From Caballeronia sp. M1242 (lineage in GTDB: Bacteria; Pseudomonadota; Gammaproteobacteria; Burkholderiales; Burkholderiaceae): DNA of 64,000 bases. The stretch covers positions 620,001 through 684,000 of the forward strand of contig NZ_CP071131.1 of assembly GCF_017220215.1 (NCBI RefSeq). The letters run 5' to 3'. The position numbers and the translations under genes were made by a program. The notes below the pieces were generated by a model, which was not told the origin of the DNA, made no database searches, and saw nothing but the letters and a program-made list of their open reading frames with translations. Shown here piece after piece: positions 29,995-37,547 of the stretch. Position 1 is the stretch's first letter. The number at the start of each line of letters is the position of its first letter.

Positions 29995-30008
29995 GCAGCA
30001 CGTTCAGT

Positions 30009-30032
30009 CAGCGCGGAAGCGAAGCCGCGCTG
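30009..30032. terminator. Bidirectional hairpin after the BKACE operon
   Basis: A perfect stem CAGCGCGG/CCGCGCTG with an 8-base loop, in the 57-base gap between the convergent SDR and TlpA-like genes. There is no T-run. Confidence 0.55.
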
Positions 30033-30051
30033 GCTAGCAAGCCAACCGCGC

Positions 30052-30615
30052 TCACTCCCGCTTCTCCCCACCCGCAAGCAAGCTCTTGATCTTCTCCTCC
30101 GTCTGCGCGTACTGCCCTTCCCCGAAGTGGCTGTACACCAGCTTGCCGTTCTGATCGATCAGATACAGCGCGGGCCAGTACTGATTGCCGTACGCGCGCC
30201 ACGTCGCGAACTGGTTGTCCTGCGCGACCGGATACGTAATGCCGTTCTTCGCAATCGCTTTCTTGAGATTGCCCGTATCGCGTTCGAACGCGAATTCCGG
30301 CGAATGCACGCCGATCACCACGAGCCCTTTGTCGCGATAACGCGCGTTCCACTCTTTGATATACGGCAGCGTGTGCGCGCAGTTGATGCAGTCGAAGGTC
30401 CAGAAATCGACGAGCACCACCTTGCCGCGCAACTGCTTCAACTGCAGCGGCGCGCTGTTGAACCAGTTGTCGATGCCCGTGAACTCCGGCGCTTGTTCTC
30501 CGTTCGCGATAGCCGCGGAGCCGAGCGCCGAAGCGCCATTCGACGCGAATGCCGTAAAGCCCGCCGTCGCCGCGATGCCGAGCGCGACTGCTGCAATCCT
30601 CAGACGACCGAACAT
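30052..30615 (-). CDS. TlpA-like periplasmic thioredoxin
   Basis: A 187-residue exported thioredoxin-fold protein. After a signal peptide it shows FWTFDCINC with the redox pair Cys 76/Cys 79, VIGVHSPEFAFERDTGN and the cis-Pro region YWPALYLID. AAGGAGA precedes the ATG. It is close to the redoxin domain of the divergent DipZ-like protein, which could supply it with electrons across the membrane. The upstream region carries the conserved local promoter described below. Confidence 0.9.
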   Translation of the reverse strand: MFGRLRIAAVALGIAATAGFTAFASNGASALGSAAIANGEQAPEFTGIDNWFNSAPLQLKQLRGKVVLVDFWTFDCINCAHTLPYIKEWNARYRDKGLVVIGVHSPEFAFERDTGNLKKAIAKNGITYPVAQDNQFATWRAYGNQYWPALYLIDQNGKLVYSHFGEGQYAQTEEKIKSLLAGGEKRE

Positions 30616-30649
30616 GGTGACTCTCCTTGGGTGGTTGATGTCAGCCCGT

Positions 30650-30742
30650 ATTGCAGCGCGCCGATGTATCCGCACTGTGTCCCGCGTTGAAGCGAATCGC
30701 GTCGTCATGTATCGCCGCGCGCCGCAGATACATGGCGATACA
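30650..30742 (-). promoter_or_regulatory. Conserved composite promoter, copy 1 (tlpA-like gene)
   Basis: Read on the minus strand: TGTATC-N4-TGTATC (30742-30727), 13 bases, GATACA (30713-30708), then 37 intervening bases to GATACA at 30670, which is preceded at five bases by GACACA. CGCTGCAAT begins 12 bases after the start of that last GATACA. The same order and spacing recur at 32596-32688 and 36188-36279. The 10-base direct repeat is the layout bound by OmpR-family regulators. It lies between the divergent TlpA-like and DipZ-like genes. Confidence 0.7.
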
Positions 30743-30821
30743 TAACGCCCGGATCGCGACATTCTCGCGATACATGCCAGCCGTGAAATAGCGCCATCGC
30801 TCATTCATGGAGGGCAGTCTC

Positions 30822-32591
30822 ATGTTGCTGGTCATCGTGGCTTTTCTGGGCGGCGCGTTCACCGTGCTCAGTCCCTGCATTCTGCCGGTCGTGCCGTTCA
30901 TCTTCGCACGCACCGACCGGCCGTTTCTCACCGATCGACTGCCGCTCCTCGCCGGCCTCGCCGGCATGTTCACGCTCGTCACCGGCCTGGGCGCGGCGGG
31001 CCTCGCCGGCGCGGCGCACCTGAGCCAGTACGGCCGCTGGCTCGCGCTCGGGCTGTTCGCGCTGTTCGGCGCGTCGCTGCTCTTTCCCGCTATCGCCGCG
31101 CGGCTCGCGTTGCCGCTCTCCGCGCTGGCGGACCGCTTCATCGCGCGGTCTCAGGCGCAAAGCGCATCGCGCCGCATCGTTCCTGCGATGCTGCTCGGCG
31201 CGGCCACCGGCCTGCTCTGGGCGCCGTGCGCCGGTCCGATACTCGGCGCGATTCTCTCCGGCGCGGCGCTGAATGGCGCGAGCTGGCACACCGGCGCGGC
31301 GCTCGCGGCGTACGCGACGGGCGCGGCGTGCGCGCTCGCGGTGGCGTCGTCGCTCGGCAAGCGCGCGCTCGACGGCCTCAAGCGATCGTTCGGCATCGGC
31401 GAGCACGTGCGCCGGGCGATGGGCGCGCTCGTGCTGCTGACCGTCGCCGCCATCGCTTCGGGCGTCGACACGCGCGTGCTCGCGCTCGTCAAGGGCGTCT
31501 CGACCGATGGCATCGAGAGCCGGCTCGTCGCGCTCTTGTCCGCGCGCACGCCGTTGCGCGGCGAAGCGCAAAAGCCGCGCATCGTGCGCGTGGCGATGTC
31601 GTCGCCGAATGCATCGGCGAATCTTCCGGTACAAGGCTCGCTGCCCGCGCTCGACGGCGCGACGCAGTGGCTCAACTCGCCGCCGCTTTCGCGCGATGCA
31701 TTGCGCGGCAAGGTCGTCGTCGTCAACTTCTGGACGTACTCGTGCATCAACTGCCTGCGCACGCTGCCGTATCTGCGGACGTGGGCGCAGCAGTACGGCG
31801 GCAACGGACTCGTCGTGCTCGGCGTGCATACGCCCGAATTCGGCTTCGAGCACGACACCGGCAACGTTCAGCGCGCGCTGCGTGATCTGCGCGTGTCGTA
31901 TCCGGTCGCCGTCGATAACGATTACCGCATCTGGCAGGCGTTCGGCAATCGCTATTGGCCGGCGTTCTATATCGTCGATCAGGAAGGGCGCATCCGCTAT
32001 CACCACTTCGGCGAGGGCGGCTACCAGGAGGCCGAGCATGTGATCCGGCAATTGCTCGGCGATGCTGCGCGGACGCCGGACACGAGCGCGCGCCCGGCGG
32101 TCGTCGCGAGCGGCACGCAAGTGGCGGCCGATCCGGCGCACGAGGCGTCGAGCGAAACGTATGTCGGCTATCGCGAGGCGGAAGGACAGGCGCCCGGCCA
32201 GCAAGTCCTGCGCGATGCCGCCGCCGACTACGCGCTGCCGCCACGTCTTGCGCTGAACGAATGGGCGCTCGGCGGGCGGTGGAACATCGGCGCGGAGGCG
32301 GCCGTGCCGGTCGCGTCGCATGCGCGCATCGCGTATCGCTTTCATGCGCGCGATCTTCATCTCGTGCTCGCGCCCGCCGCCGACGGAAAGCCGGTGCGCA
32401 TTCGCGTGACCGTGGATGGCGCGGCGCCGGGCGCGTCGCACGGGGCGGACGTCGATGCGAACGGCAACGGCGTCGTCGATGCCGCGCGCCTCTACCAACT
32501 CGTGCGCCAGAGCGGAAGCGTCGATGACCGCACGTTCCAGATTGAGTTTCTCGACAGCGGCGCGCGCGCTTACGCATTCACCTTCGGCTGA
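30822..32591 (+). CDS. DipZ-like fusion: CcdA/DsbD membrane domain, redoxin, C-terminal beta domain
   Basis: A 589-residue protein like mycobacterial DipZ. Residues 1-220 form the CcdA-type electron-carrying membrane domain with its two cysteines in LSPCILPVVPF and WAPCAGPILGA. A periplasmic redoxin domain follows, with FWTYSCINC at about 303-311, then a beta-rich C-terminal domain (about 440-589) as in DipZ. It should carry reducing power from cytoplasmic thioredoxin to the periplasm. ATG 30822 has GGAGGG seven bases upstream and is preferred over one five codons earlier. Its redoxin domain is a paralogue of the divergent TlpA-like protein. Confidence 0.9.
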   Translation: MLLVIVAFLGGAFTVLSPCILPVVPFIFARTDRPFLTDRLPLLAGLAGMFTLVTGLGAAGLAGAAHLSQYGRWLALGLFALFGASLLFPAIAARLALPLSALADRFIARSQAQSASRRIVPAMLLGAATGLLWAPCAGPILGAILSGAALNGASWHTGAALAAYATGAACALAVASSLGKRALDGLKRSFGIGEHVRRAMGALVLLTVAAIASGVDTRVLALVKGVSTDGIESRLVALLSARTPLRGEAQKPRIVRVAMSSPNASANLPVQGSLPALDGATQWLNSPPLSRDALRGKVVVVNFWTYSCINCLRTLPYLRTWAQQYGGNGLVVLGVHTPEFGFEHDTGNVQRALRDLRVSYPVAVDNDYRIWQAFGNRYWPAFYIVDQEGRIRYHHFGEGGYQEAEHVIRQLLGDAARTPDTSARPAVVASGTQVAADPAHEASSETYVGYREAEGQAPGQQVLRDAAADYALPPRLALNEWALGGRWNIGAEAAVPVASHARIAYRFHARDLHLVLAPAADGKPVRIRVTVDGAAPGASHGADVDANGNGVVDAARLYQLVRQSGSVDDRTFQIEFLDSGARAYAFTFG

Positions 32592-32595
32592 TGTT

Positions 32596-32688
32596 TGTAT
32601 CGCTGTGTATCCGGCGCGGCGCGTGACACATGCGCTTGCACCGGGCAGCGCTGGCGGAAACAAGCCAGATACGTTGGCGCGTTTCAAT
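32596..32688 (+). promoter_or_regulatory. Conserved composite promoter, copy 2 (DUF4148 gene)
   Basis: TGTATC-GCTG-TGTATC (32596-32611), 13 bases, GACACA (32625-32630), then GAAACA-N5-GATACG (32657-32673) and CGTTTCAAT at 32680. Distances match those upstream of the tlpA-like gene and of the second DUF4148 locus. It begins four bases after the dipZ-like stop codon. Confidence 0.7.
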
Positions 32689-32753
32689 ACGTCTCAGGCA
32701 AGGCCGATTCGCTTCCGGCCTTGCAGTCAACCCCTCGACCTTTGGAGAACATC

Positions 32754-33050
32754 ATGAAAGCCATGCAACTGATTGCTGCCGCCGCGCTTGCCGTCGCGCC
32801 CATCGTTACCTTCGCGCAGAGCGGGAACGACATCACGCGCGCGCAAGTGCGTGCCGAGCTCGTTCAACTGGAGAAGGCCGGCTATAACCCGGCAAGCGAT
32901 CATTCGCAGTATCCGAAGAACATCGAGGCCGCGGTTGCGCGCCTGCATTCGGGTGATGCCGCGTATGGCGGCGCGGCGGCCGGCGCGTCGCAAACGGGCG
33001 CGCGACAGGGTGAGGTCGTCGGGCTCGGCTCGGTGTACGCGCGTCCGTGA
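32754..33050 (+). CDS. DUF4148 exported small protein
   Basis: A 98-residue protein with a signal peptide (LIAAAALAVAPIVTFA) and the DUF4148 core: ITRAQVRAELVQLEKAGYNPAS. DUF4148 proteins are abundant in Burkholderia and of unknown function. A GGAG site precedes the ATG. Its promoter shares the composite site with the tlpA-like gene and the DUF4148 pair near 36.4 kb, so the three are probably controlled together. Confidence 0.85.
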   Translation: MKAMQLIAAAALAVAPIVTFAQSGNDITRAQVRAELVQLEKAGYNPASDHSQYPKNIEAAVARLHSGDAAYGGAAAGASQTGARQGEVVGLGSVYARP

Positions 33051-33138
33051 TGCGGATGCGTTCGCATCGCGCGGATGTGGTTGCGCGGTGCGAACGCCGA
33101 ACCTTCACGCGATACGACATCGGCCGCGCTTTCGTACG

Positions 33139-33245
33139 GCCGCCTTGGCGCGGATGCAAGTTCGTCGTGGCGTTCATCGCGGGTTGCCTCGCGATTGCGA
33201 CTTCAGCGGTGTGCCGCTAGTGTCGCGACTGCTCTAAGCTTGCAC
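33139..33245 (-). pseudogene. Relic A of the histidine-kinase 3' end
   Basis: On the minus strand this reads RDTSGT and then, in a shifted frame, AIARQPAMNATTNLHPRQGG. It matches RDTGGT...AIARQ...MDATLTLHSRDGG at the end of the intact kinase gene at 33821. Frameshifts and a short deletion show decay. Confidence 0.65.
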
Positions 33246-33310
33246 TCGGCGTCGCGTCTTGGCGATGCGTCTGCTCATACGTCTAACCGGTGTTAATGAC
33301 GCCAGTCGCG

Positions 33311-33417
33311 CTTCCAAACCGCCGCCTTCGCGCGGATCAGACCCGGGTTGCCGTTGATAGCCCGCGCGAAGTGCCGCGCCATGCTCACATGCCGATTGCG
33401 CGATCTTCCCGCGAACG
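33311..33417 (-). pseudogene. Relic B of the histidine-kinase 3' end
   Basis: Minus-strand frames give MARHFARAI, and after a frameshift REGGGLEARLAS, matching the kinase's IARQLARAM and RDGGGLEARLVL. A copy of the linker/terminator sequence (33419-33451) stands at its upstream side, between this relic and relic C. Confidence 0.7.
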
Positions 33418-33476
33418 TCGCATCGCGCAACAAGTCGTGCGGCATGCAACGTAAAACGCCCGTTCGCGACACCAGC

Positions 33477-33612
33477 GGCGCTTCTTAACCGCCGCCTTCG
33501 CGCGCATGCAAGGTCAACGTGGCCTCCAGCGCCCGCGCCACTTGCCGCGCGATCGCAAGCGCCGGCGGCATGCCGCTCGTGTCCCGATTGCTCGAAGCTT
33601 GCCACCCGCACC
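33477..33612 (-). pseudogene. Relic C of the histidine-kinase 3' end
   Basis: The best preserved copy. Between 33586 and 33485 the minus strand reads without interruption ALAIARQVARALEATLTL and on to HAREGGG then a stop, against GLAIARQLARAMDATLTL and HSRDGGGLEARLVL in the intact kinase. The G2-box glycines have been lost (SGMPPA for GGTGLG). A linker copy (33612-33645) follows on the kinase side. Confidence 0.8.
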
Positions 33613-33672
33613 GCATCGCGCAAGCAGGTCGTGCAGCATGCAACGCGACACCGCCGTCCAAGGATCGAGCAG

Positions 33673-33777
33673 CGCTTCGAAACCGCCGCCTTCGCGCATA
33701 TCGAGATCAACTTCGCGTCAATAGCCGCAAGATCGCAAGCACTCGCCGCCGTGCTCAAACTTCTCTTGAGCCTCGCA
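33673..33777 (-). pseudogene. Relic D of the histidine-kinase 3' end
   Basis: Nearest the intact gene but more decayed: the minus strand retains MREGGGFEALLD at its end, with a stop and scrambled sequence before it. The intact kinase stop and its linker (33773-33808) lie immediately upstream. Confidence 0.6.
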
Positions 33778-33808
33778 TCGCACGAAACAAGTCGTGCAGC
33801 ATGCAACG
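33773..33808 (-). terminator. Kinase-operon terminator-like linker, repeated downstream
   Basis: GCACGA-N6-TCGTGC forms a stem beginning about 13 bases after the kinase stop. The same 33-36-base block, with drift, recurs at 33612-33645 and 33419-33451, each time beside a kinase relic. The repeated unit is therefore gene end plus hairpin. Confidence 0.5.
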
Positions 33809-33820
33809 CGAAACAACTAC

Positions 33821-35164
33821 TCACAAAACCAGCCGCGCCTCCAACCCGCCGCCGTCCCGCGAATGCAACGTCAACGTAGCATCCATCGCGCGCGCGAGTT
33901 GCCGCGCGATGGCAAGTCCCAGCCCCGTGCCGCCCGTATCGCGATTGCGCGAGCTTTCCAGCCGCACGAAAGGCTCGAACACCGCTTCGAGCGACGCTTC
34001 CGGAATGCCCGGTCCGCGATCCATCACCGAGATGCGCGCGCGGCCATCGGCGAGCGGCTTCATCTCGATCTCCGCCGCGCCCGAAAACTTCAGCGCATTG
34101 TCGACGAGATTGCCGACGATGCGCCGCAACGCCTGCGGACGCGTCACCATCGCATGGCCAATGCGGCCTTCGAGCGACACGCTCTTTCTCGCGTCGCGGT
34201 AGTCGTCGACGATGCTCTCGATGAGCGCATCCGGATCGATGCGCACGGGCGCTTCATGCGTGCCGTGCAACGTCCGCGCGTACGTCACGCCTTCCTTCAC
34301 GAGCGTTTCCATCTCCTGCAAGTCCTGCCGCAGCTTCGCGCCGGTCGCGCTGTCGTCCATCACGTCCACGCGCAGGCGCATGCGCGTGATCGGCGTCTGC
34401 AGATCGTGCGTGATGGCCGCGAGTATCTGCATGCGCTGCGCCATGTACATCGCGACGCGATCCTGCATCGCGTTAAACGCCTTCGCCGCGCGCAGCACTT
34501 CGTCCGGGCCTTCTTCGGGCAGGCGCTGTCCCTTGAGATCGGGACCGAGCGTGTCGGCCGCGTGCGCCAGTTCCGCGAGCGGGCGCGTGGCGAGGCGCAC
34601 CGCGAGCCAGCAGCACGCCACCACCACCGCCAGTTGCAACGCGAGCACGAAAGGCAGCCAGCTCGACAGCGGCGTGCCCTTCATCGGGCGCATGTCGATG
34701 GTGAGCGGCGAGCCATCGGAGAGGCGCAAGTGGATCTGGAACCGTTCGGCGTGGCCGGGCACGGCGTTCGCCGTCAGCGGATAACGCTTGCCGATGCCTT
34801 CGGCGATCGACTGCGCGAATCGCTCGGACAACGCGGCGTCCGGCGGCGCGCCGCTCACGCCCGGGCCGAGGATGAAATCGTACGTGCGCCGCGCGAGTCG
34901 CGGCAACCACGCGGCGCGCTCGCCGGGCGGCAGGTGATCGAGCAGCGCGACCGAACTCGCCACTTCGCGCTCGACATAGCCCGTCATCACGTTCGTCATG
35001 CTTCGGTCGCGCTCGGTCATGGTGAGCCAGAACGCGGCCGCCTGCGCCACCGCGAGCCCGATCAGCAAGATGACCGCGAGCCGCGCGAAGAGCGTGCGCG
35101 GCAAGCGCAGCCACGCGGCGGCTGCGCGCGGCGCGTCCTCCGATACCCCGATGCGCGTGCTCAT
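33821..35164 (-). CDS. Sensor histidine kinase (EnvZ-like)
   Basis: A 447-residue membrane kinase: helix LFARLAVILLIGLAVAQAAAFW, a periplasmic sensor region of about 130 residues, a second helix (LPFVLALQLAVVVACCWLAV), HAMP, then a dimerisation helix with the phospho-His in AAITHDLQTPITRMR (about residue 253). The N box is NLVDNALKF, G1 DRGPGIP, G2 GTGLGLAIARQ. The start overlaps the regulator's stop in an ATGA. It should sense an extracytoplasmic signal and phosphorylate the regulator. Its last 35 codons are duplicated in decayed form downstream. Confidence 0.93.
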   Translation of the reverse strand: MSTRIGVSEDAPRAAAAWLRLPRTLFARLAVILLIGLAVAQAAAFWLTMTERDRSMTNVMTGYVEREVASSVALLDHLPPGERAAWLPRLARRTYDFILGPGVSGAPPDAALSERFAQSIAEGIGKRYPLTANAVPGHAERFQIHLRLSDGSPLTIDMRPMKGTPLSSWLPFVLALQLAVVVACCWLAVRLATRPLAELAHAADTLGPDLKGQRLPEEGPDEVLRAAKAFNAMQDRVAMYMAQRMQILAAITHDLQTPITRMRLRVDVMDDSATGAKLRQDLQEMETLVKEGVTYARTLHGTHEAPVRIDPDALIESIVDDYRDARKSVSLEGRIGHAMVTRPQALRRIVGNLVDNALKFSGAAEIEMKPLADGRARISVMDRGPGIPEASLEAVFEPFVRLESSRNRDTGGTGLGLAIARQLARAMDATLTLHSRDGGGLEARLVL

Positions 35165-35901
35165 GGCGTGCCGCCGAGCGGCGTCACCGCGGCGGAGAAC
35201 ACATAGCCCTCGCTGCGCAGCGTCTTGATGTAGCGCGGCTCGCGCGCTTCGTCCTTCAGGCGCTGACGCAGGCGGCTCACGAGCAGGTCGATGGAACGGT
35301 CGAACGGATCGGCCTGACGGCCTTGCGTCAGATTGAGCAACTGATCGCGCGTGAGCACGCGCTGCGGATGATCCAGAAACACGCGCAGCAAGCGATATTC
35401 GGCGCCGGAGAGCGCGACCATCGTGCCATCGGCGTCGAGCAGATGACGCGCGGTCGTGTCGAGCCGCCAGTCGCCGAAAGCCAGCACGGGCGCGGTCTCC
35501 GTCACCTGCATGCCGGGCGGCAGCATGCGCGTGCGGCGCAGGACGGAGCGCATCCGCGCGAGCAGCTCGCGCACGGCGAACGGTTTCGGCAGATAGTCGT
35601 CCGCGCCCATTTCGAGGCCGAGAATGCGATCGGCTTCCTCGTTGCGCGCGGTCAGCATGAGCACCGGAACGGAGCGGAACTTGCCCGCGCGCAGTTCGCG
35701 GCATAGCACGAGTCCGTCTTCGCCCGGCAGCATCAGATCGAGCACGATCAGATCCGGCGCGCCCTGTTCGAGCACGGCGCGCATCTGCCGGCCATTGGCG
35801 GCAAGCGACACGCGCATGCCGTTCTTCTCCAGATACGTCGCGAGCAGTTCGCGGATGCCGCGGTCGTCGTCGACGATCAGCACGTGGTCGTTGGTTTCCA
35901 T
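35161..35901 (-). CDS. OmpR-family response regulator
   Basis: A 246-residue regulator with a receiver domain (phospho-acceptor Asp 55 in LIVLDLMLPGEDG, LTAR, Lys 106 in LPKPF) and a winged-helix DNA-binding domain (LSGAEYRLLRVFLDHPQRVLT; SIDLLVSRLRQRL; KTLRSEGYVF). OmpR-family proteins bind 10-base direct repeats. TGTATC-N4-TGTATC repeats of just that type occur before nearby genes, including about 75 bases upstream of the small gene that precedes it. Confidence 0.93.
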   Translation of the reverse strand: METNDHVLIVDDDRGIRELLATYLEKNGMRVSLAANGRQMRAVLEQGAPDLIVLDLMLPGEDGLVLCRELRAGKFRSVPVLMLTARNEEADRILGLEMGADDYLPKPFAVRELLARMRSVLRRTRMLPPGMQVTETAPVLAFGDWRLDTTARHLLDADGTMVALSGAEYRLLRVFLDHPQRVLTRDQLLNLTQGRQADPFDRSIDLLVSRLRQRLKDEAREPRYIKTLRSEGYVFSAAVTPLGGTP

Positions 35902-35908
35902 CGATCGC

Positions 35909-36031
35909 TCATGGCTTCTTGCGCTTGTATTGCACCCGGGCGGGCGTGAGCAACAGGCACTGCACCGGATGCGCGAGTTCGGCCGCCAGTCCGCCCGCGA
36001 GGAAGGCGACGATTGCCAGCATGCGTTTCAC
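35909..36031 (-). CDS. Small membrane protein ahead of the two-component genes
   Basis: A 40-residue protein from GTG 36031, which has GGAG six bases upstream; an ATG at 36052 would give 47 residues but lacks a ribosome site. One hydrophobic stretch (MLAIVAFLAGGLAAELA) is followed by a basic end (VQYKRKKP), so it is a single-span membrane peptide. It ends eight bases before the regulator gene, so it is probably first in that operon. Small membrane peptides sometimes tune sensor kinases; a role here is a guess. Confidence 0.5.
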   Translation of the reverse strand: MKRMLAIVAFLAGGLAAELAHPVQCLLLTPARVQYKRKKP

Positions 36032-36105
36032 GGATGACTCCAGCGTTGACATGCAAGCTTTATAGCCCAAAGCGCGCGCGGTTTCGACAGGCGGGCGGCG
36101 CGTTT

Positions 36106-36140
36106 TGTATCGCAGTGTATCCGCGGCTTTGGGCGATACA
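36106..36140. promoter_or_regulatory. Composite regulator site, partial copy (two-component operon)
   Basis: TGTATC-GCAG-TGTATC, 13 bases, GATACA: the first half of the conserved promoter, without the second half at the usual distance. It lies upstream of the small-protein/regulator/kinase operon and 82 bases before the complete copy that serves the DUF4148 pair. Autoregulation is the likely meaning. Confidence 0.6.
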
Positions 36141-36187
36141 TAGCGTTGCACGCGTCGATCACGTTGCGACCCGCGCGGCGCCGCGTT

Positions 36188-36279
36188 TGTATCGCCATGT
36201 ATCCGGAAGCAGCCTGATACAGAGCGATTCGAACACGGCGCTCATCTGAAACATGGCGGATACACGGGGGCGTTTCAAT
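36188..36279 (+). promoter_or_regulatory. Conserved composite promoter, copy 3 (DUF4148 pair)
   Basis: TGTATC-GCCA-TGTATC (36188-36203), 12 bases, GATACA (36216-36221), GAAACA-N5-GATACA (36248-36264) and CGTTTCAAT (36271-36279). Here TGAAAC and GTTTCA form a perfect inverted repeat across the second block. Spacing matches the other two promoters to within one base. Confidence 0.7.
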
Positions 36280-36383
36280 GGCGTCACGGCAGCAGACGGT
36301 GCAAACAACGCAAGTTCACACGCAAGTGAGCGCGGGCCGGCACCTGATGAGCGTCGTCACTCTCAACCTCAAGGAGCTTAATC

Positions 36384-36602
36384 ATGAAGACCTCGATCAT
36401 CGCTTTGTTCGTCGCCGCGAGCGCTTTCGCGGGAGCCGCGCAAGCCGCAGTCAACGATACCGCGCCCGCGTCGCAGGATACACAGTCGTCGGCGGTGCAT
36501 CGCGTCATGGGCAAGACGCGCGCCGAAGTCCGCAGCGAACTCGTGCAGGCGCAGAAGAGCGGACAGATCGCGGCGCTGGCGAGTCTCTATCGCGGTAGCT
36601 GA
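36384..36602 (+). CDS. DUF4148-type exported protein, first tandem copy
   Basis: A 72-residue protein: signal peptide (IIALFVAASAFAGAAQA) and a short mature part ending in KTRAEVRSELVQAQKSGQIA, the DUF4148 signature. AAGGAG precedes the ATG. It is almost identical to the next gene, differing by Thr/Ala at one mature position. The composite promoter at 36188-36279 should drive both, possibly together with the Ohr-type gene. Confidence 0.85.
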   Translation: MKTSIIALFVAASAFAGAAQAAVNDTAPASQDTQSSAVHRVMGKTRAEVRSELVQAQKSGQIAALASLYRGS

Positions 36603-36672
36603 GTGACTGCGTTGCGCATCGCCCGATTTCCAATCATTCGCAAGATCACTTTCAACCTCAAGGAGCTTAATG

Positions 36673-36891
36673 ATGAAGACCTCGATCATCGCTTTATTCG
36701 TCGCCGCGAGCGCTTTCGCGGGAGCCGCGCAGGCCGCAGTCAACGATACCGCGCCCGCGTCGCAGGATGCGCAGTCGTCGGCGGTGCATCGCGTCATGGG
36801 CAAGACGCGCGCTGAAGTCCGCAGCGAACTCGTGCAGGCGCAAAAGAGCGGACAGATCGCGGCGCTGGCGAGTCTGTATCGCGGTAGCTAA
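36673..36891 (+). CDS. DUF4148-type exported protein, second tandem copy
   Basis: A 72-residue near-copy of the preceding gene with the same signal peptide and RAEVRSELVQAQKSG core. The ATG aligned with the first copy is at 36673; an ATG one codon earlier arose from a C-to-G change. The ribosome site AAGGAG is kept. Function unknown, as for the whole family. Confidence 0.85.
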   Translation: MKTSIIALFVAASAFAGAAQAAVNDTAPASQDAQSSAVHRVMGKTRAEVRSELVQAQKSGQIAALASLYRGS

Positions 36892-36938
36892 GCGCTTGCG
36901 TTTCGCATCGCCTGATTTCCAACCATTCGAGGATCACC

Positions 36939-37358
36939 ATGACGACACACATGGATACTGTGCTCTATACCGGCAAAACGCGCGTAACCGGAGGCCGCGA
37001 AGGACACGCGCGCAGCTCCGACGGCCGGCTCGACGTAAAGCTCTCGACGCCCGGCGCGGCCGGCGCGGGCACCAACCCGGAGCAGATGTTCGCGGCGGGC
37101 TGGTCGGCGTGTTTCATCGGCGCAATGCGCAAGGCCGCCGCCGTGCTGCAAGTGAAGCTGCCCGAGGATACGGCCGTCGACGCCGAAGTGGATCTCGGCA
37201 CGCACGACGGCGCGTATCTGCTGCGCGCGCGGCTTGCGGTGAGTCTGCCGGGCATCGACCGCGATACGGCGCACGCGATCGTCGAGGGCGCGCATCAGAC
37301 CTGCCCGTACTCGAAGGCGACGCGCGGCAATATCGACGTGACCATCGAGGTCGTATGA
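36939..37358 (+). CDS. Ohr/OsmC-type peroxiredoxin
   Basis: A 139-residue OsmC-family protein close to Ohr: VLYTGKTRVTGGREG at the N-terminus, peroxidatic Cys 58 in GWSACFIGAM and resolving Cys 122 in HQTCPYSKATRGN. Ohr reduces organic hydroperoxides with lipoylated or dithiol donors. A GAGGA site precedes the ATG, and the gene begins right after the DUF4148 duplication, so it may be read from the same promoter. No OhrR-type regulator is adjacent, unlike many ohr loci. Confidence 0.92.
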   Translation: MTTHMDTVLYTGKTRVTGGREGHARSSDGRLDVKLSTPGAAGAGTNPEQMFAAGWSACFIGAMRKAAAVLQVKLPEDTAVDAEVDLGTHDGAYLLRARLAVSLPGIDRDTAHAIVEGAHQTCPYSKATRGNIDVTIEVV

Positions 37359-37547
37359 GAGCGACGGCATGGCGGCGGCGCGAGGATGCGCTCGCTGCCG
37401 CCGGAATGTAGTGACTTCCGGGGACGCGTAAGAGCGGGCATGGCGCGTGCCATGAGCGAGAACGGTCGTCGATTGCGCGTCCGCGGTTGAACGGCGCGAG
37501 ACGACCTGATATGTTCGCTTGAACCTCACTCAGCCCTCGGAGTCACG

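Follow-up and report, generated by a model that had tools for sequence, protein, structure and literature searches.

The stretch analysed here, 64,000 bp of the Caballeronia sp. M1242 genome (contig NZ_CP071131.1, positions 620,001 to 684,000; hereafter the window, whose own coordinates are used throughout), carries several copies of a promoter layout of about 95 bp close to the genes for an EnvZ-like sensor histidine kinase (33821-35164, minus strand; Pfam and NCBIfam matches) and an OmpR-family response regulator (35161-35901, minus strand). Sites with this layout occur almost only in sampled genomes that also carry this one uncharacterised sensor-regulator pair, and they point to a so far uncharacterised regulon of the OmpR family whose promoters follow an unusually strict plan. 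It is very likely that the layout is the activator platform of the adjacent two-component system, because its spacing is fixed, its targets are correctly oriented, its occurrence follows that of the regulator and it is associated with a particular regulator helix. The first-pass annotation of this DNA had named the local regulator as the candidate, and its domain families, the OmpR-like layout and the co-occurrence with the sites support it as the predicted binder of the boxes.

Promoter layout and distribution of the sites

Three promoters with five elements in the same order, preceding different genes, had been described in the first-pass annotation, and all three are present. Promoter A (30650-30742, minus strand; profile score 53.0 bits, E 1.5e-13, with a model built without window sites) precedes the TlpA-like gene and has its distal block at 30727-30742, middle box at 30708-30713, proximal boxes at 30676-30681 and 30665-30670 and a -10-like TGCAAT at 30650-30655. 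Promoters B (32593-32695, plus strand; 53.8 bits, E 8.3e-14) and C (36185-36286, plus strand; 56.8 bits, E 9.3e-15) precede DUF4148 genes, with the corresponding elements of B at 32596-32611, 32625-32630, 32657-32662 with 32668-32673, and 32683-32688 (TTCAAT), and those of C at 36188-36203, 36216-36221, 36248-36253 with 36259-36264, and 36274-36279 (TTCAAT). In A, B and C respectively, TGTATC-N4-TGTATC is followed after 13, 13 and 12 bases by GATACA, GACACA and GATACA; 26 bases then lead to GACACA, GAAACA and GAAACA, each followed by N5 and GATAC (with A, G and A as the next base), and the hexamers TGCAAT, TTCAAT and TTCAAT stand 9 bases beyond these boxes. The constant distance of 38 bases reported earlier is indeed constant, although the figure of 38 includes both GATACA and GA(A/C)ACA, the gap between them being 26 bases in each of the three.

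The set of three full promoters was nonetheless incomplete, since a fourth, facing the DsbD-thioredoxin gene (30707-30795, plus strand; 47.0 bits, E 1.1e-11), had been overlooked. It uses the distal block of promoter A read in the opposite direction, TGTATC at 30708-30713 and GATACA at 30727-30732 and 30737-30742 being common to both, and has its own proximal elements GACATT (30758-30763) and GATACA (30769-30774) and a -10-like TGAAAT (30784-30789). Upstream of the regulator gene, between it and promoter C, lies a further copy, D (36103-36154, plus strand; 32.6 bits over model positions 2-53 only), which had been noted as a partial copy; it is there, but with an exact distal block (36106-36121) as well as a middle block (36135-36150), only the proximal block being missing.

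These matches are far more numerous than expected by chance. TGTATC-N4-TGTATC occurs exactly four times in the window (30727 on the minus strand, 32596, 36106 and 36188) and in none of 200 simulated windows, and with up to two mismatches it occurs nine times, whereas 100 shuffles gave 1.05 matches on average and never more than 4; 14 of the 28 TGTATC or GATACA hexamers of the window start within 30600-36300. A genome scan had been suggested on the expectation of few matches, mostly local, and this is what was found: four of the six exact copies in the 5.76-Mb genome are in the window, and at the other two the remaining elements are missing from the 140 bases inspected. With up to one mismatch there are 11 matches in the genome, against three for a reversed control pattern. 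When a profile of 41 non-window sites, held out by genome and not by lineage (its training included the same genus and family), was run on this genome, the top five matches were C, B, A, the DsbD promoter and D, all in the window. Ten matches were obtained at E<=10, eight of them in the window (three being weak opposite-strand readings), and this profile found no further regulon members elsewhere in the genome, the best matches outside the window having E values of 0.16 and 0.32. An RNA element was rejected, there being no Rfam match at gathering scores in 30000-37500 and the boxes lying upstream of the inferred start.

The same layout of about 95 bp, three tandem boxes and a -10-like hexamer, recurs in alpha-, beta- and gammaproteobacteria (96 distinct sites in all), with different spacers in the other classes; this reach was absent from the first-pass annotation. 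The consensus of sites from other genomes runs from TTTGTATC-N4-TGTATC in the distal part and about 13-15 bases, through GATACA-N4-(G)ATTCA or TTGCA in the middle part and about 17 bases, to GACACA-N5-GATAC, about 9 bases and TNNAAT in the proximal part, rhizobial sites deviating at TNNAAT. When best matches are sought inside small ranges, 93 of the 96 sites have a distal period of 10 and 91 a proximal period of 11, the boxes of the middle pair being about 10 bases apart; in 85 the first proximal box comes 50-51 bases after the second TGTATC, and in 90 the -10-like hexamer, chosen as the best match among 7 positions, comes 14-15 bases after GATAC. The distal block selected the first training sites, so that its conservation, unlike that of the other blocks, is partly built in. 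The distal and middle blocks face each other, are near-symmetric and read similarly on both strands, in agreement with the intergenic region that TlpA and DsbD share and with the three weak profile matches on the opposite strand.

The initial stretches were the best 80 of at least 588 confirmed stretches, and the first profile used 32 sites (three from the window and 29 others), the exact-match sites of loci L016 and L061 being omitted by choice. L061 was included in profile A1, and R1, a sequence-only profile, was built from the 41 sites outside the window that scored 40 bits or more. The set of 96 sites was restricted to matches that scored 30 bits or more and extended as far as model position 95. 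Sites with an identical 50-base core were counted once, and the window and loci L012-L091 and L102-L155 were the sources, with L160-L167 not used.

As had been anticipated, the sites track the regulator in related genomes. In the same genus (25 genomes including this one), 20 have the regulator at 83% identity or more and a further one (G008) has the kinase, which is truncated at the end of its contig; sites at E<=1e-3 are present in all 21 with either orthologue and in one of the four without, the three negative genomes being G003 (60% complete), G015 and G024. Among 300 genomes of the Burkholderiales, sites (E<=1e-4; the stricter filters used in searches of more than 40 genomes lose weak sites) occur in 20 of the 70 with a regulator match at E<=1e-75 and in none of the 230 without, so that all 20 site-positive genomes have a match. 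Divided by regulator identity, sites are present in 10 of 10 genomes at 66% or above and in 10 of 60 at 56-65%. In 16 of the 20 the regulator gene and a site are no more than 300 bases apart, and in the other four the site lies 565 bases (G013), 2.5 kb (G278) or 5.3 kb (G320) away or is unlinked (G228). Across 398 genomes of the Pseudomonadota, which share five site-positive genomes with the order sample, sites are present in 24 of 25 with a regulator of at least 66% identity and in 3 of 373 others (0 of 37 with a 51-65% homologue and 3 of 336 without a match). Some sites of genome G001 are about 200 kb from the regulator or on another contig, and linkage alone therefore does not explain the co-occurrence.

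Of the 80 fetched loci, 35 have a regulator of 70% identity or more, and 28 of these have a best profile match of 30 bits or more; among the 45 with lower identity there are 4 such loci (some of the sites, as at L016 and L017, are partial). Regulator homologues (E<=1e-90) are also found on 148 plasmid records, 79 of them from Sinorhizobium; four plasmid regions were inspected, and those of S. meliloti (32.2 bits) and P. antarctica (38.6 bits) have a site of at least 30 bits, those of Pantoea (16.8 bits) and P. sprentiae (24.2 bits) having weak sites only.

Target genes, proposed mechanism and signal

Using tblastn against representatives, 90 of the 96 sites were assigned to a downstream gene in the correct orientation and six were left unassigned, although some assigned targets may be second genes of an operon (at L115 Ohr is 336 bases away). 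The targets are DUF4148 genes (25 sites), TlpA (14), alpha/beta hydrolases (13), DsbD-thioredoxin genes (11, one of which, at L019, is nearer to CcdA), DUF2790 (9), Ohr (5), LTXXQ or Spy-like genes (4, identified by a Pfam test for L045 only), CcdA-like genes (3) and, with one site each, an epoxide-hydrolase-N gene, HvfA, HvfB, CzcE, an unnamed small protein (L029) and the regulator itself (L123); the epoxide-hydrolase-N, HvfA, HvfB, CzcE and L029 classes were matched to their own protein and are not independent support. HvfA is so named after a match to the KCGExKCG domain model (39.4 bits, cut-off 19.5), its score staying below the cut-off of the HvfA equivalog. At one Pseudomonas locus (L025, 14626-15063) the gene behind the site fuses an HvfA-type KCGExKCG stretch to EF-hand repeats, and an HvfB-like gene comes after it. 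At a Propionivibrio locus with a regulator of 61% identity (L061, 9826-9928) the site faces a gene resembling a TRAP-transporter small permease.

In the window, promoter A faces a TlpA/ResA-like redoxin (30052-30615, minus strand; Pfam Redoxin 66.9 bits, over the cut-off, with 30615 as the chosen start) and the fourth promoter a DsbD_TM - redoxin - Thioredoxin_10 protein (30807-32591, plus strand; Pfam), whose true start, to judge from the N-termini of relatives, is probably 30822. Promoter B precedes a DUF4148 gene (32754-33050, plus strand; Pfam 61.8 bits), and promoter C a near-identical pair of them (36384-36602 and 36670-36891, plus strand) followed by a gene for an Ohr family peroxiredoxin (36939-37358, plus strand; NCBIfam TIGR03561 162.3 bits, cut-off 88.85), which probably belongs to the same operon, five sites of relatives being assigned to Ohr. 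The first-pass annotation linked the promoters to DUF4148 genes of the window; the genome has 19 Pfam matches to this family, 18 of them over the cut-off, and of these 18 only the three in the window sit behind a site; the layout was accordingly rejected as a promoter of the DUF4148 family.

We propose that the phosphorylated regulator would bind GAYACA half-sites as head-to-tail dimers and that its output would be activation. The proximal dimer, ending about 9 bases before the -10-like hexamer, would replace the -35 contact in a class II arrangement such as that of PhoB at pho boxes, and the near symmetry of the distal and middle pairs would allow one copy to serve two divergent genes, such as TlpA and DsbD; a bidirectional layout of fixed phase would be a clean natural case of OmpR-type dimers stacking on promoters. 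The sensor would report periplasmic thiol, oxidant or metal damage, and the response would supply reducing power to the periplasm (DsbD/CcdA and TlpA), remove organic peroxides (Ohr) and add lineage-specific small proteins (DUF4148, DUF2790 and LTXXQ), apparently exported as judged by eye from their N-terminal sequences. Three residues are candidates for sensing: Cys184 in the second transmembrane stretch of the kinase, kept in 32 of 34 aligned kinases, which is a possible redox switch within the membrane, and, in the periplasmic part, Met60 (31 of 34) and His145 (28 of 34).

The signal is the weakest step of this proposal. Gene content points to periplasmic thiol or oxidant stress and a metal signal would also be possible; we regard the case for an oxidant or thiol signal alone as about evenly balanced. 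On balance unlikely, but the best of the alternatives, is a response mainly to copper or another soft metal, in which the thiol-redox genes would repair metal-caused disulfide damage. Sites before HvfA-type and HvfB genes in two Pseudomonas loci and before a CzcE gene in Massilia speak for copper, and Met60 and His145 are of residue types able to bind it, although a single Met and a single His make no metal site alone. In Pantoea a DUF305 gene is divergent from the regulator, with only the 16.8-bit site between them, and in Pseudomonas aeruginosa the Dsb regulator DsbRS is copper-responsive. Metal-linked genes are nevertheless found at only 3 of the 96 sites, against 33 at TlpA, DsbD, Ohr or CcdA.

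A broader extension of the thiol-stress proposal, which we consider distinctly doubtful, is that a widespread system for periplasmic stress has kept its promoter more strictly than the set of genes it controls, that LTXXQ/Spy-like, DUF2790 and DUF4148 proteins, although unrelated, are lineage-swapped stand-ins for a CpxP/Spy-type chaperone or for kinase feedback, and that the kinase senses redox state through its membrane Cys. If true, this would give DUF4148 and DUF2790 their first role.

Identity of the regulator

The regulator has a Response_reg domain (108.6 bits) and a Trans_reg_C domain (76.1 bits), both over the cut-off, which places it in the OmpR/PhoB family, and the promoters have direct repeats of 10-11 base period, putative sites for a regulator of that family. 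The best NCBIfam matches of the regulator and kinase are OmpR and EnvZ, below the curated cut-offs (253.2 of 331 and 170.6 of 415 bits); the scores for CpxR and CpxA (174.5 of 341 and 120.8 of 486 bits) and for the CzcRS/CopRS heavy-metal group (TIGR01387 and TIGR01386; 143.9 of 279.2 and 92.6 of 292.55 bits) also fall short, and no curated NCBIfam cut-off is reached among the matches listed (25 of 97 and 25 of 76, respectively). The helix FDRSIDLLVSR(L/V)RQRL is shared by 26 of the 29 regulators whose sites score 40 bits or more (the exceptions being L043, L045 and L061), in three of four at 30-40 bits and in two of 48 below 30 bits, an association that is not proof of specificity, as regulator identity drops in parallel. 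Two Variovorax loci (L027 and L030) have a regulator of 75-76% identity, no clear site and FERSID in place of FDRSID in the helix, which perhaps reflects changed specificity.

Several observations weigh against assigning the boxes to this regulator. One genome of the genus (G018, 3.9 Mb) has a site and neither regulator nor kinase, in the phylum sample a single site without any regulator match at E<=1e-75 occurs in each of G379, G410 and G456, and G674 carries the regulator (74% identity) and no site. Seven of the 35 fetched loci with a regulator of at least 70% identity, including one at 91% (L015), have no 30-bit site, and L061 combines a 43.6-bit site with a different helix and an unrelated target. 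In addition, the training sites of the profile came from the neighbourhood of this regulator, and Fisher P values of 2e-14 and 4e-34 ignore the relatedness of the genomes and are overstated.

The four genomes with sites and no regulator match are what would be expected if a different regulator, either a paralogous OmpR-family protein or an extracytoplasmic function (ECF) sigma factor, used the boxes and the local system were merely a neighbour or target, as are the sites that face the regulator gene itself (at L123, and copy D) and the presence in this genome of other OmpR-family proteins at 47-49% identity. We consider this quite improbable in view of the co-occurrence of regulator and sites in all three genome samples and the lack of a site in any of the 37 phylum-sample genomes that have only a 51-65% homologue; the layout also appears OmpR-like rather than resembling an ECF -35/-10 pair.

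In pairwise comparison, promoters A, B and C share 32-34 of 36 element positions, whereas in the spacers 18-24 of 56-57 positions agree and in the flanks 14-19 of 60 upstream and 7-9 of 40 downstream; boxes so alike among unlike spacers and flanks are therefore not recent copies of one DNA segment, and an origin as a DNA repeat or cassette was rejected. That the copies are a small mobile or duplicated element travelling with the genes, as several copies within 6 kb and the adjacent duplicated DUF4148 pair might suggest, is hardly credible given this divergence and the different spacers of other classes.

Related systems and other features of the locus

Assignment of the boxes to the adjacent OmpR-family system invites comparison with better known regulators. 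Enterobacterial EnvZ/OmpR is similar in providing the best NCBIfam matches of both proteins and in its tandem direct-repeat sites, and the OmpR half-site is GNAACA-like, resembling GAYACA; it differs in that both proteins here score below the curated cut-offs and in its targets. The pho boxes of PhoB are 11-base direct repeats that replace the -35 box, about 10 bases before the -10, but their half-site is different, the PhoB cut-off is not reached and here there are two extra upstream pairs, the distal one inverted. Four loci in which a site faces an LTXXQ-like gene beside the regulator recall CpxRA with CpxP and Spy, whereas the CpxR and CpxA cut-offs are not reached and DUF4148 or DUF2790 genes take this place in Burkholderiaceae and Pseudomonas. 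DsbRS of P. aeruginosa is a two-component system controlling Dsb genes and resembles the present system in this predicted role.

The oxidant-responsive EcfF/OsrA regulon of Bradyrhizobium is reported to contain a DsbD-like protein and a periplasmic thioredoxin anchored in the membrane, which are proposed to serve a periplasmic methionine sulfoxide reductase, but it is governed by an ECF sigma factor and a cysteine anti-sigma factor rather than a two-component system (PMC3420878). Some DUF2790 genes are reported to respond to lanthanides (PMC11520305), which is uninformative on the regulator, and a DUF4148 protein is a reported virulence factor of Burkholderia pseudomallei (PMC7549894), on which the present data have no bearing. 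No description of the motif or system was recognised among the matches listed in the open-access full-text literature. An unnamed two-component system of soil, plant-associated and symbiotic bacteria acquires a predicted regulon that can be located precisely on the DNA; several families about whose function little or nothing is known (DUF4148, DUF2790 and the alpha/beta hydrolase group) would come under one regulator beside periplasmic thiol-redox enzymes, and the whole gene set can be tested as one regulon.

Two further features of the locus concern repeated DNA. The tandem DUF4148 genes with their leaders (36384-36891) are 96% identical in DNA sequence, indicating a recent duplication. Downstream of the kinase gene and extending into its 3' end are degenerate direct repeats (33261-33952), comprising a 73-base unit present four times at 62-77% identity and a 170-base pair at 78%, which resemble decayed copies of the end of the kinase gene.

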